Of a stretch of DNA of 64,000 nt, positions 4,547-17,534 are shown piece by piece (positions within the stretch are counted from its first letter, which is position 1; the number at the start of each line of letters is the position of its first letter). This stretch comes from Agitococcus lubricus (GTDB taxonomy: Bacteria; Pseudomonadota; Gammaproteobacteria; Pseudomonadales; Moraxellaceae), in assembly GCF_003051055.1 (NCBI RefSeq), contig NZ_QAON01000012.1, forward strand, positions 1-64,000, given 5' to 3'. The notes below the pieces were generated by a model. That model did not search any database. It was not told where the DNA came from and saw only the letters and a program-made list of their open reading frames with translations. The translations under genes and the position numbers were made by a program.

Positions 4547-6523
4547 TTACCAATGTTGTCCTTGTAAGACATTGGCTAAGACAATCGCGGCGGCTGACGG
4601 TTTTTCTTCACGTACCCCTCGTGCTGCCGCAGAGGAAGGGAAGAGCTTAAAGCCTAAACTCAAAATGGCATCGTTAATCTTTGGCCAAATGGCATAAGAT
4701 AGCTCTGCGGTTTGCCCAAGTGGTGTTTTAATCCGTTTAGGTTTGCTGACGATGGCCTTAATAATTAAATTAGCGGCTTGGTCTGGCGTGTAAGTCGGTA
4801 CATAGTCATACATTTTGGTCGGTGCAATCATTGGCGTGCGTACCAAGGGCATATAAATAGCGGTTGTTTCGATATTGTATTGACGCACTTCTGCCGACAA
4901 ACAACGGGTAAATGCATCTAAAGCGGCTTTACTGGCTACATAGGCCGAGAAACGTGGTGCATTGGCCAAACAACCAATTGATGAAATATTGATAATTTGC
5001 CCTTTGCGTGCGGCTTGCATAGAGGGCAATAACCGCATAATTAAACGAATAGCACCAAAGTAATTTAGTTGCATCGTGCGTTCAAAATCGTGAAAACGGT
5101 CAAAAGATTCGACTACGGCACGACGAATGGAGCGGCCTGCATTATTGATTAAGATATCAATATGACCATGTTCTGCGAGCACTTGCTCGGCAAGCTGGTC
5201 AATCGCTTCCATATTTGTAAGGTCACATGGGTAAACAAAGGCGGTACCCCCGATTTTACGAATCATGTCTGCGGTTTGTTCGAGTTTTTCAATACCGCGA
5301 GCGACTAAAAGAACATGTGCGCCAGATTTTGCCAACTTTTTGGCGACAGTCAAACCGATACCACTGGATGCACCTGTAATTAACACGGTTTTCCCTTTGA
5401 CGACTTTGAGTGCTTTAGAGGCCATAAACGCACTACTATCTAAATACCACTCCCAATAGTCCCATAATTTGTCGGCATAGCTTTCTAAGCGAGGGCATTC
5501 AATATCACTGCCTTTGAGTGCATGACGTGCTTGTTTATCGTCAAATTCAAACTTGTTAAAAGCATAGGTTAATGTAGAAACAGGCGCGCCAATCGCCTTA
5601 GAAATAGTATGGGCTAAGTCGCTAACGGCAAATTTATCAAACAGTGCTTTGGCTTTATGAGGAACTTTAATATCAGGTAAGTCAAAACTTTTAGCAAACT
5701 CAGGACCATGAGCCGCTTGTAACATAATTTGCATGAACTCACCCACGGTAGGAGCAGGGTGCTGTACTAAACAAAAAGCACGGCCATCTAGGCCTGTTTT
5801 ATGGGCAATATAGTCAGTCGCATCAGCCACATAATTGACGGGGCATAAAGGCATTTGTCCGCCTGTGATGCCTAACAAAGGTAACCATTTAGGCACATGG
5901 TCACGTAAACGTTGTAACATTTTGAAGAAATAGTATGGGCCATCAATTTTATCCATCACGCCTGTGTTGGAATCACCAACAACCATCCCCGGTCTATAAA
6001 TTCGATAAGGCACTGTAGACTCTTCGCGGACAATTTTTTCGGATATAAATTTACTCCGATAATAAGGATGGCTAAAACGCTGGCCTTCATCAAACATGGA
6101 CTCATTGAAGACGCCTTCCCACTCTGTGCCTGCAACGGCAATTGAGCTCATGTGATGTAAACGCACATCACCGCCCAGTTGATTACAAAAGTTGACAACA
6201 TGACGCGTGCCTTCATTATTGATGGCTTCACCTTCGGCTTCGGACATGTTCATGTCATAAATTGCGGCTAAATGAAACACATGGTCAATGGTGCCTTTAA
6301 GTTTGGCTAAATCGCTATCGCTGACTAACAGAGGTTGAGAAATATCGCCATAAATTGGAATCAGTTGTTGCTCTGTTGCCCCTAACTCATCCATTAAGTC
6401 GAAAAATTTGCCTTGAGAAGACTTTCGGCAGAGTAAATAGATAACGGCGTTGTCACGTTTGAGTAAACGTTCAACCAAAAAACGACCAATAAAACCTGTC
6501 CCACCCGTGACGAAATAGTTCAT
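4547..6523 (-). CDS. Two-domain fatty acyl-CoA reductase (alcohol-forming type)
   Basis: 658 residues, the length and layout of Marinobacter-type fatty acyl-CoA reductases that reduce acyl-CoA through the aldehyde to the fatty alcohol with NADPH. Residues 1-360 are an extended SDR: nucleotide motif TGGTGFIG at 6-13 and active-site Y154-x3-K158. Residues 375-620 are a classical SDR similar to Acr1: TGASSGIG at 383-390, NNAG at 460-463, Ser514/515 and Y528-x3-K532. Both catalytic sets are intact. The product, fatty alcohol, is the substrate for wax ester synthesis, although no WS/DGAT gene lies in the window. Monocistronic, with operator-like palindromes upstream. The alternative is a reductase of other long acyl or aldehyde substrates. 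Confidence 0.9.
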   Translation of the reverse strand: MNYFVTGGTGFIGRFLVERLLKRDNAVIYLLCRKSSQGKFFDLMDELGATEQQLIPIYGDISQPLLVSDSDLAKLKGTIDHVFHLAAIYDMNMSEAEGEAINNEGTRHVVNFCNQLGGDVRLHHMSSIAVAGTEWEGVFNESMFDEGQRFSHPYYRSKFISEKIVREESTVPYRIYRPGMVVGDSNTGVMDKIDGPYYFFKMLQRLRDHVPKWLPLLGITGGQMPLCPVNYVADATDYIAHKTGLDGRAFCLVQHPAPTVGEFMQIMLQAAHGPEFAKSFDLPDIKVPHKAKALFDKFAVSDLAHTISKAIGAPVSTLTYAFNKFEFDDKQARHALKGSDIECPRLESYADKLWDYWEWYLDSSAFMASKALKVVKGKTVLITGASSGIGLTVAKKLAKSGAHVLLVARGIEKLEQTADMIRKIGGTAFVYPCDLTNMEAIDQLAEQVLAEHGHIDILINNAGRSIRRAVVESFDRFHDFERTMQLNYFGAIRLIMRLLPSMQAARKGQIINISSIGCLANAPRFSAYVASKAALDAFTRCLSAEVRQYNIETTAIYMPLVRTPMIAPTKMYDYVPTYTPDQAANLIIKAIVSKPKRIKTPLGQTAELSYAIWPKINDAILSLGFKLFPSSAAARGVREEKPSAAAIVLANVLQGQHW

Positions 6524-13034: not shown

Positions 13035-15371
13035 ATGTTGCAACCCAAGTTATTAGCCGTTGCCATTTTAGCCTCGTCGTTAGGTCTGGTTGCCTGTAAT
13101 GATAATAATGATGCAGGTGCAAGTCCTAAAACAACATCTACGGTCACGACCACGACGATTACCGTGACGCCTTCATTGGGCAAAATTGTCAATGCACGAG
13201 TTATTTTACGTAATGTGAATGGTCAAGACCTTGCCCCCGCTAAAACACTCACGCCTGCCGATAATGGGGTTGCAAAATTTACGGTACCCATCAGTGCCTT
13301 GGCGCAACCCGTAGTCGCGGCTGTTTTACCCACATTAGCAGGTAAAGTGGATTATATTGATGAAGCACTCAATAATCAGATTTCTACCATTACCGTACCC
13401 GTGGCGGATGCCAACAAACCCATTTTGCGCTCTGCAGCCGTCGTCACCCAAAACGCGAATCTAGCCGTTACCGCATTAACAGAAGCCGCTGTCAAACAAG
13501 CCGAACAAGCGACAGGTGGTTTAATTAGTCAAAATATCAACGCGGCTAATAATGCGGTTAAAGACCAACTCAAACTCAATTTTAATATTAGCGAAGCACC
13601 AGAAGTGATTGGTCAAAATGAGCTGGCAAAACTGATTAATAGTGCCTTAGACCAACAACGTCGTGCTTATGCGGCGTATTTGGCAACGCTGGCGCAGCAA
13701 GCAAAACGCATGAATAGCACCAGTACCACACCTGCTTTCGATATGGCTAAAGCGCTCGCCCAAGACTTTAGCGATGGCACGTTTGATGCCAAAGTGAATC
13801 AAGTGGCTTTGGATTTTTATAGCACTAATTTTCTAACGGCATGGGTTAATTGGGTAACAACGGTTTACAGCCAGCTACTCAACTTTGCAACAGCCGCACA
13901 ATTTAACTATTGGTTTGACCGTGTGAACGTCGAGCAGCCAACCGATAACACACCAGCTGTACCTATTCGTGTCGAGGATGGTGTAGAAGAATATGCCTGT
14001 AACGAGGCGGCTAAACTAAAATCTGGCACCAATAATAATCAGTTGAATATCAGTTTTGTCAATCAAACGGGTAGTCCGATGAATGTGGATTGGATTAACT
14101 TTACGGGGGCCTTACAAAACTATAGCCGCAACTTGGCCAATGGACAAACCTATACCATTCAACCCACGTTCTTGACGCACCCTTGGAAAGTCACCAACAA
14201 TCAAGGTCAATGTTTAGGCGTGTTTGTGGCCAAAACGGCGACAGCAAAAACATTAACCTTTAAGGCAAATGAGGTCATTATTGGTACACCTGTGGTTGCA
14301 CCCAATTGCTCAAATAAAGGCTTACCCTTTGCTGCCTTTAGTGTACTCAAGGAGTTTGCAGGCAGTTATGCGGTGGATTTGAATGGTTCAGCAAAAACCT
14401 TAAGCCTCAGTGCCAATGATACTTCAGCACAAATCACCTTAAATGGACAAAGCAAAAATCTGACCGAAATTTGTGGTAGTGCACAACCCTTAACCAATGG
14501 CACATCTTATTTAGGCTTGTTTAATGGCGGTGAGATTAATTTCTTCAAAACGAATACTAACCCAGTCGAGTATAGTACTGAGGGTTTAGATTTTACAGGT
14601 TCATCGGGTGTGTATTTTGGTAAAAAACAATCCACGACAACGCTGTGTAATTCTGAGGGGACAGACGATAAATTAGGTTTTATCAATGCGCCAGCAGATT
14701 TCTGTAGTTTTACGAGACAAAGTTCTATTGCTATCACGAGTCCTGACATCTACACCTTTGTCAATGCCGATGCCAATATCAAAATTACCCTGACAAATAA
14801 TGCAATCACCTCTGTAGAGTTAGAAAATAATAAATACTCCTTTGCCTGTGGTATTGGTAATGGTACAGGCAATTGTGGTGGTTCAACCGCGATTAGTAGC
14901 GCTAATTTTAAGCAATTTACCTTTACTAATGTGGTTCTGACTGCTCAAAATGGTACAACTCAAAACTTGACTATTCGTAATGGTGCATTGATTCATCCCG
15001 TGACTACCGCGCCTACAAGTCCCATCCAATTAAGTGCCTGTACTGTGGCGACTAATTCAGTCGGTACAAACTGTGGTGCAGGTGTATTAGCCGACTTTAG
15101 TTATAGCTGGCGTAATGCGGCCAATAATAAAGCCTGTGCTATTACTAAAAATGGTGCAACCGTACGTGCAGAGAGTGACGGTAAAATAGCGATTGCAGAG
15201 TTTGATAACGGGGCGGGGGACACCGCGCAAGTGTCTAGCAATGCAGCACAAGCATTTGCTCAAAATGCTGATGCTTCACACGGCATACAAATTATTTTTA
15301 ATGCCACAGGACAGGCGGTGATGATTACTTCTGTCGTAAACAAAGTCAGTTTTATCTGCGTGCCTATCTAA
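13035..15371 (+). CDS. Large surface lipoprotein with VHL-beta-like domain
   Basis: 778 residues. A signal peptide ends in the lipobox LVAC with lipidated Cys21 followed by Asn, which favours outer-membrane sorting. Residues 30-46 are a Thr-rich linker; 47-120 look beta-rich, 130-300 helical. Residues 336-400 (SFVNQTGSPMNVDWINFTG, LTHPWKVTN, CLGVF) resemble the bacterial von Hippel-Lindau beta domain by pattern. The rest (425-778) is Asn/Thr/Gly-rich beta sequence with paired Cys residues. An ACAT-type AAGGAG site precedes the ATG. Function unknown; probably exposed and adhesive or ligand-binding. It is monocistronic and followed by a terminator. Confidence 0.75.
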   Translation: MLQPKLLAVAILASSLGLVACNDNNDAGASPKTTSTVTTTTITVTPSLGKIVNARVILRNVNGQDLAPAKTLTPADNGVAKFTVPISALAQPVVAAVLPTLAGKVDYIDEALNNQISTITVPVADANKPILRSAAVVTQNANLAVTALTEAAVKQAEQATGGLISQNINAANNAVKDQLKLNFNISEAPEVIGQNELAKLINSALDQQRRAYAAYLATLAQQAKRMNSTSTTPAFDMAKALAQDFSDGTFDAKVNQVALDFYSTNFLTAWVNWVTTVYSQLLNFATAAQFNYWFDRVNVEQPTDNTPAVPIRVEDGVEEYACNEAAKLKSGTNNNQLNISFVNQTGSPMNVDWINFTGALQNYSRNLANGQTYTIQPTFLTHPWKVTNNQGQCLGVFVAKTATAKTLTFKANEVIIGTPVVAPNCSNKGLPFAAFSVLKEFAGSYAVDLNGSAKTLSLSANDTSAQITLNGQSKNLTEICGSAQPLTNGTSYLGLFNGGEINFFKTNTNPVEYSTEGLDFTGSSGVYFGKKQSTTTLCNSEGTDDKLGFINAPADFCSFTRQSSIAITSPDIYTFVNADANIKITLTNNAITSVELENNKYSFACGIGNGTGNCGGSTAISSANFKQFTFTNVVLTAQNGTTQNLTIRNGALIHPVTTAPTSPIQLSACTVATNSVGTNCGAGVLADFSYSWRNAANNKACAITKNGATVRAESDGKIAIAEFDNGAGDTAQVSSNAAQAFAQNADASHGIQIIFNATGQAVMITSVVNKVSFICVPI

Positions 15372-16444: not shown

Positions 16445-16604
16445 GGCGATAGCACTCTCAAATTTTATGTCATTGGGCGGCTTATCGTTTTTGATGAGTC
16501 GCCTTGTGTTGTAAATACCTAGATTAAATTAAGGGTTGTTACTGACAGTATCGTATTGATTTGCTATGTTAAATGATCGAATAGCCATGAAACATGAGGT
16601 TGAT

Positions 16605-17534
16605 ATGAGCGAACAACCAAAAAAAATCAGAAAAAAATTACTAAACAAAACCTTAAGTGCGGCTAACAAAGCCTTAGAAGTGGCTGAAGACTTGGTTGAC
16701 ATGGCGCAGGATACCGCCAAATCGGTTGTCGATGCGGCCAGCGATACGGCACGTAATACCTTACAGTTTACCGCAGACAGTGCTCAAACCTTGGTTCAAT
16801 TAGCAGGTGGTGGCGCTAAAATGACAGCGCAACTGGCCAGTGATACTGCCAAAGCGGCAAGTCAGTTGGCACAAGAAGCAGCCTTACAAATGGCGCAAAA
16901 CTATTTCAGTAAAACAACCTTAACGATTGCCGTCAGTGAATCTCAGCTCAATAAACAGTTGAGAAAGATGATAGAAAGCCATGATTATATTGACTTTATT
17001 AAAGTCGATTGTGAACGAGACCGTTTGATTGTCAGCTTGGATGGCCACTATCAGCGTTTGATTTGTACCTTGAGTTTATACTTTGATGTATTGGAGTGTA
17101 AGGTTTCGCATCAAGAGCAATTTTTAATGTTGCGGCACGTTAATACCAACATAGATACCCAGCTCCGCCAAGCCCGAAGTTTAACTAATTTTGCCTTACG
17201 CCGTGCAGCACGCACGACATCATTCGTATTGAAACGTTTACCTGAAAAAGTTGACCCTGTGAGTTTCTTTCTCAGCCGTGTTGATGGTTTTAGTCAAGAA
17301 GGCCCCTATTTGTGGCGTGTGGCATTACATAAAAACTTATTGATTGAGCTGTTGCAAAATCGTTCTTGGATTGTCGAAAAATTACTAAGTCTTACAGACC
17401 TCTCTGTTATACCAGGTCTCTCTCTCCTGTTAGACAGTGAAGATATGTTATTAAAATTGGCGAATCAATTTGAGATTCGTTCTCTACGTGTCATGCCTAA
17501 TCGTTTAGATTTATTGGTCGGTATTAATACCTAA
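16605..17534 (+). CDS. Protein with seven 11-residue amphipathic repeats; possible lipid-surface protein
   Basis: 309 residues from ATG 16605, chosen because GAGG lies 5 bases before it. After a basic N-terminus (KKIRKK), residues 21-97 fall into seven gap-free 11-residue units with Ala (or Thr) at position 3 and Ala at position 7, for example DAASDTARNTL (43-53) and QLASDTAKAAS (76-86). Such 11/3 helices in synucleins, perilipins, apolipoproteins and LEA proteins lie flat on lipid surfaces. Residues 105-309 form a separate alpha/beta region with two similar-looking halves (SESQLNKQL... and LHKNLLIELL...), faintly like DUF2993/TULIP lipid-binding proteins. No signal peptide. I do not recognise a named family. 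Lipid inclusion coat protein is a hypothesis. Confidence 0.7.
   Translation: MSEQPKKIRKKLLNKTLSAANKALEVAEDLVDMAQDTAKSVVDAASDTARNTLQFTADSAQTLVQLAGGGAKMTAQLASDTAKAASQLAQEAALQMAQNYFSKTTLTIAVSESQLNKQLRKMIESHDYIDFIKVDCERDRLIVSLDGHYQRLICTLSLYFDVLECKVSHQEQFLMLRHVNTNIDTQLRQARSLTNFALRRAARTTSFVLKRLPEKVDPVSFFLSRVDGFSQEGPYLWRVALHKNLLIELLQNRSWIVEKLLSLTDLSVIPGLSLLLDSEDMLLKLANQFEIRSLRVMPNRLDLLVGINT

Follow-up and report, generated by a model that had tools for sequence, protein, structure and literature searches.

Introduction

Helices that settle on lipid surfaces have been described numerically for alpha-synuclein (89 aa; moment 0.30, hydrophobic fraction 0.47, aromatic fraction 0.02, charged fraction 0.24), Plin3 (90 aa; 0.35, 0.37, 0.01, and 0.23, respectively), and Plin4 (0.257, 0.35, 0.002, and 0.15) (PMC5889406 Table 1). 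Among bacterial TULIP proteins, YceB, DUF4403, and DUF2993 are placed outside the cytosol, either exported or membrane-anchored (Levine, PMC6791001).

In this study, we analyzed a gene in a 64,000-nucleotide stretch of Agitococcus lubricus DNA (contig NZ_QAON01000012.1, positions 1 to 64,000; hereafter the window). Its product is a two-part protein, in which a helix of the kind that coats animal fat droplets precedes a strongly conserved domain without a family assignment; this domain may itself bind lipids. To our knowledge, the building and coating of wax-ester/TAG inclusions in Gram-negative bacteria are poorly known, and no structural inclusion protein for Acinetobacter was found described in the literature searched. 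A droplet-type helix combined with a possible lipid-carrying domain in tractable Acinetobacter species thus offers a concrete gene for study. Moreover, if the C-terminal domain is a TULIP domain, the superfamily would be extended to the cytosol of Gram-negative bacteria.

Gene and protein

The open reading frame (16605..17534, + strand; 309 aa) is real, in frame, and conserved. Its ATG at 16605 is preceded by a GAGG motif; a second in-frame ATG lies at 16566, and close homologues begin at or near 16605. The protein, whose N-terminus is MSEQPKKIRKKLLNKTLSAA, shows no evident signal peptide or transmembrane segment, the highest 19-residue Kyte–Doolittle mean being 1.38. Because a signal peptide is absent, the protein is probably cytosolic. 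Residues 1–20 (16605..16664, + strand) form a basic segment with six K/R at the predicted start of the helix, and Acinetobacter homologues likewise begin basic (SRRL-[IL]-[NH]-KTL). This segment is a candidate anchor onto anionic phospholipid.

Searches of the protein against Pfam, NCBIfam, PADLOC, and PDB sequences gave only sub-threshold matches. One of these, to ZorA (13.7 bits), lies mainly over the repeats and was read as composition.

The 11-mer repeats

Residues 21–97 (16665..16895, + strand) divide without gaps into seven 11-mers, NKALEVAEDLV, DMAQDTAKSVV, DAASDTARNTL, QFTADSAQTLV, QLAGGGAKMTA, QLASDTAKAAS, and QLAQEAALQMA. Unit position 3 reads AAATAAA and position 7 AAAAAAA. The self-identity at lag 11 is 0.32 (0.29 at lag 22) against 0.11 ± 0.036 for shuffled sequences (p ~1e-4), and a best-of-lags test over lags 3–15 gives p ~3e-4. 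Among all window frames of at least 150 codons (4872 sub-windows), this repeat region is the best lag-11 segment, scoring 0.33, and the next reaches 0.20. The sequence-only reading, which had described seven contiguous 11-mers with Ala/Thr at position 3 and Ala at position 7, is confirmed by this division and by the lag-11 statistics. The 33-nt units are just 43% identical at the DNA level; therefore, no recent DNA duplication is indicated, and the pattern is kept at the protein level.

The same residues carry a clear amphipathic moment, as the earlier reading had expected. The hydrophobic moment at the 3/11 turn is 0.285, compared with 0.080 ± 0.041 for shuffles (p ~1e-4), and its maximum falls at 99 degrees per residue, which fits an 11/3 helix. 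The wide apolar face is made up of positions 2, 6, 10, 3, 7, and 11 and spans ~160 degrees, with small Ala near the center and bulky residues at the edges. The basic residues at unit position 8 lie near the polar center, away from the interface, whereas class A helices have theirs at the interface; here, basic charge is concentrated in residues 1–20. In the full-length AlphaFold2 model, residues 1–77 are mostly helical, yet their pLDDT is below 50.

The 88 residues before the C-terminal domain have a moment of 0.31, a hydrophobic fraction of 0.48, an aromatic fraction of 0.01, a charged fraction of 0.19, and a net charge of −3. These figures are close to the published ones for alpha-synuclein and Plin3; since moments were averaged over overlapping 33-residue windows on the Fauchere–Pliska scale, their comparison with published values is approximate. 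Gap-free 11-mers, a moment near 98–100 degrees, weak hydrophobicity, and few aromatics are all present, as in helices of the perilipin/synuclein physical type. In a published comparison, 66-aa Plin4 fragments did not reach droplets, whereas an 85-aa synuclein construct did (PMC5889406), and the helix here would therefore be near the useful minimum length. A PDB sequence search with the full-length profile returned mostly alpha-synuclein chains, aligned on the repeats and at E values of 1–10 only. No Pfam perilipin match, PAT domain, or 4-helix bundle was found, which speaks against membership in the perilipin family proper. Similarly, the match to Phasin_2 is faint: 3 of 15 homologues reach E ≤ 1 (best 0.014), and the Agitococcus protein scores 11.2 bits against a Pfam cut-off of 24.9. 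Collectively, the periodicity, moment, and composition point to a segment that would behave as a lipid-surface helix, which is the strongest inference of this analysis.

The conserved C-terminal domain

Residues 98–309 (16896..17531, + strand) form the conserved C-terminal domain, which carries most of the conservation of the protein; its two main parts have mean majority fractions of 0.69 and 0.74, and the repeats one of 0.56. No family in Pfam, NCBIfam, or PDB sequences matched it, which bears out the earlier impression that this domain is unlike any known family. Across 24 C-terminal domains (16884–17531 here), C136, C165, and the motifs G-H-x-x-R and N-R-x-W are invariant or nearly so.

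AlphaFold2 with 24 sequences (mean pLDDT 78) predicts, in order, alpha, beta, alpha, four beta, alpha, alpha, two short beta, helices, and two beta. Within it, the order beta–alpha–four beta–alpha–short beta–alpha–two beta resembles that read from DUF1439/YceB sequences. Against a DUF1439 (YceB) alignment built from genomes of the class, hhalign gave two collinear end matches scoring 25.6 and 18.9; none of 13 unrelated control families scored above 19.1. The profile match has P 0.005, and 8 of 50 block-shuffled profiles scored at least as well. DUF4403, another TULIP family, gave no profile match to the domain. With Foldseek, no PDB entry matched at E ≤ 0.001; the lowest E value was 0.014, and TM-scores did not exceed about 0.3. 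The weak matches include the TULIP entries 8bgm, 6ekt, 3e8w, 4keg, 6baq, and 5i7l, with structures of the OrfX complex, P47, Takeout, and SPLUNC1/BPIFA1 among them, and CapZ and PYL/START-like folds score similarly weakly.

The proposal that the domain is lipid-binding, with a TULIP fold, thus finds a weak collinear match to DUF1439 in its favor, while DUF4403 and the Foldseek search give none at a significant level. Taken with the predicted model, these comparisons suggest a TULIP-like lipid-binding fold, a reading that is plausible but weak and falls short of proof. An argument against it is the number of polar positions in the domain that are invariant (H, R, N-R-x-W, and the two Cys), which a plain lipid tube would not be expected to need. 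Elsewhere, the same genome encodes a DUF4403 protein with a lipoprotein-like signal (L122, G000:C2:57198-58466).

Homologues and genomic context

The C-terminal domain profile is present in 40 of 199 Moraxellaceae genomes and in 5 of 16 genera; outside the family, sampled genomes gave no match, and wider searches of the class and order gave no full homologue. Carriers include Agitococcus, Fluviicoccus, Perlucidibaca, Paraperlucidibaca, and many Acinetobacter, among them the hospital pathogen A. baumannii, in which the only annotated copy bears the label hypothetical protein. A strong repeat, varying in number, is seen in Agitococcus, Fluviicoccus, and Perlucidibaca/Paraperlucidibaca, where the helices are ~77–110 aa long. 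In Acinetobacter copies, 11-residue identity is near chance (0.09–0.13), yet the amphipathic moment is retained (p ~0.001 or less); it is significant in all 15 homologues examined. Amphipathicity, a physical property, is maintained while the 11-mer repeat drifts in Acinetobacter.

Three Perlucidibaca-like genomes (G017, G029, and G040) have a second copy with an N-terminal region of only ~50–80 aa, and only the form with the short N-terminus was found in G060. A Paraperlucidibaca homologue (L010:1186-2376) has a long K/P/A-rich extension before the repeats, recalling the DNA-binding tails of PhaF-type phasins. The gene is also carried by two 240-kb contigs labeled "Acinetobacter phage MD-2021a" (CAKLQH020000003.1 and CAKLQF020000004.1), which look like misfiled host chromosome.

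The gene is flanked by a ttcA-like gene and a leucine-carboxyl-methyltransferase (LCM)-like gene, 160 and 142 bp away. This order was seen only within the genus; neighborhoods differ among genera, with no conserved operon and no partner kept beyond the genus. A terminator-like hairpin lies between the ttcA-like gene and the 11-mer gene (16475..16504, + strand), weakly suggesting separate transcription, as three terminator-like sites were found versus 1.3 expected by shuffling. At 13035–15371, a large lipoprotein-like open reading frame of 778 aa has no Pfam match; in congeners, similar large frames directly precede the ttcA-like gene. The sequence-only reading had pointed to a wax-ester-type acyl-CoA reductase in the window. 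At the domain level, this enzyme is present (4547–6523, − strand; NAD_binding_4 and adh_short), but at a distance of 10 kb and on the opposite strand, and no genomic linkage of the 11-mer gene to storage-lipid genes was found.

The Agitococcus genome has three WS/DGAT matches and no full-length PHA synthase (PhaC) match of the kind expected in a host of PHA phasins. Inclusions here, if any, would therefore be of wax ester/TAG. The sole PhaC match is partial (36 model positions) and falls in an alpha/beta hydrolase with the Ser nucleophile motif GWSMGG, a lipase box (L111:4388-5524, that is, G000:C8:37387-38523). Within Acinetobacter, a closer paralogue group of this hydrolase (PhaC_N, E ~1e-6 to 1e-8) accompanies the 11-mer protein in 24 of its 25 carrier genomes and is absent from all 41 genomes that lack the protein. 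We did not take this as evidence, since it probably reflects one clade and genera g13 and g14 have the hydrolase without the 11-mer protein. Co-occurrence with WS/DGAT is likewise uninformative, the enzyme being near universal in the family (197 of 199 genomes).

Discussion

We tentatively favor, at a little short of an even chance, a protein that resides in the cytosol and binds lipid peripherally, its helix serving to dock the conserved domain on inclusions or on the inner membrane. Together with the basic N-terminus, the 11/3 helix, which is long and weakly hydrophobic, would fold on a phospholipid-covered surface; this may be the monolayer around wax-ester/TAG inclusions, the inner leaflet of the inner membrane, or both. 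There, the helix would hold the C-terminal domain at the lipid surface, and this domain would probably use a TULIP-like cavity to bind a lipid or acyl chain or to pass it on. A more specific version is improbable at present: a TULIP-like lipid-transfer protein of the cytosol, tethered by its perilipin-like 11-mer helix to wax-ester/TAG inclusions and serving in Moraxellaceae as a filling factor or lipid shuttle between inner membrane and inclusion. Such a tethered cytosolic TULIP would be a new arrangement, because the widespread bacterial TULIPs surveyed are exported or membrane-anchored (PMC6791001).

The sequence-only reading had gone further and proposed a lipid-inclusion coat protein. Its helix of lipid-surface type stands, and a dedicated phasin- or perilipin-like coat, in which the helix covers and stabilizes wax-ester/TAG droplets and the C-terminal domain is accessory, would agree with the perilipin-like helix numbers and with a genome that has three WS/DGAT matches and no full-length PHA synthase match. 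The specific coat role is nevertheless unsupported because only 40 of the family genomes have the protein, so that most genomes able to make such lipids do without it, because storage genes are not linked to it, because the C-terminal domain is more conserved than the repeats, and because the paralogues have a short N-terminal region; we consider this role unlikely. A somewhat better, though still rather doubtful, case can be made for oligomerization of the protein through the 11-mers, as a hendecad coiled coil or a helix bundle; the C-terminal domain would then have no connection with lipids and would act as an enzyme or in some specific binding. Positions 3, 7, and 10 fit a 4-3-4 spacing, the core is Ala-rich, and the invariant N, D, H, R, W, and two Cys of the domain would suit such a function. 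In contrast, the breadth of the apolar face, with its small center and bulky edges, speaks against a hendecad, as does the low confidence of the AlphaFold2 helix, although the alignments are shallow and the model is monomeric.

Finally, the repeats might belong to an LEA-type desiccation protectant, an 11-mer helix lying along membranes during drying. Group 3 LEA 11-mers have the same apolar spacing, and A. baumannii is one of the desiccation-tolerant Acinetobacter that carry the protein. However, the charged fraction is only 0.16–0.28, where charge-rich 11-mers would be expected, Pfam gave no Group 3 LEA (PF02987) match, and we know of no LEA protein with such a conserved folded domain; this explanation is very improbable. 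DtpC of A. baumannii was considered as a counterpart and set aside, as it belongs to a different family (PMC13232832).

The docked protein that we favor can be set against four described systems. With Group 3 LEA proteins it has 11-mer helical repeats in common, but it is far less charged (0.19) and contains, in addition, a conserved folded domain. Phasin_2 (PF09361) and other phasins share its Ala-rich amphipathic helical N-terminal part but not its large extra conserved domain. The bacterial TULIP families YceB/DUF1439, DUF4403, DUF2140, and DUF2993/LmeA have a similar predicted order of strands and helices; unlike these exported or membrane-anchored proteins, to which any homology is putative, it lacks a signal and has a long amphipathic helix. 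From perilipins (Plin3/Plin4) and alpha-synuclein it differs in lacking significant homology, in its negative net charge, and in its basic residues near the polar center, whereas it shares with them the 11/3 periodicity, a length of ~80–90 aa, a low moment, few aromatics, and low charge.
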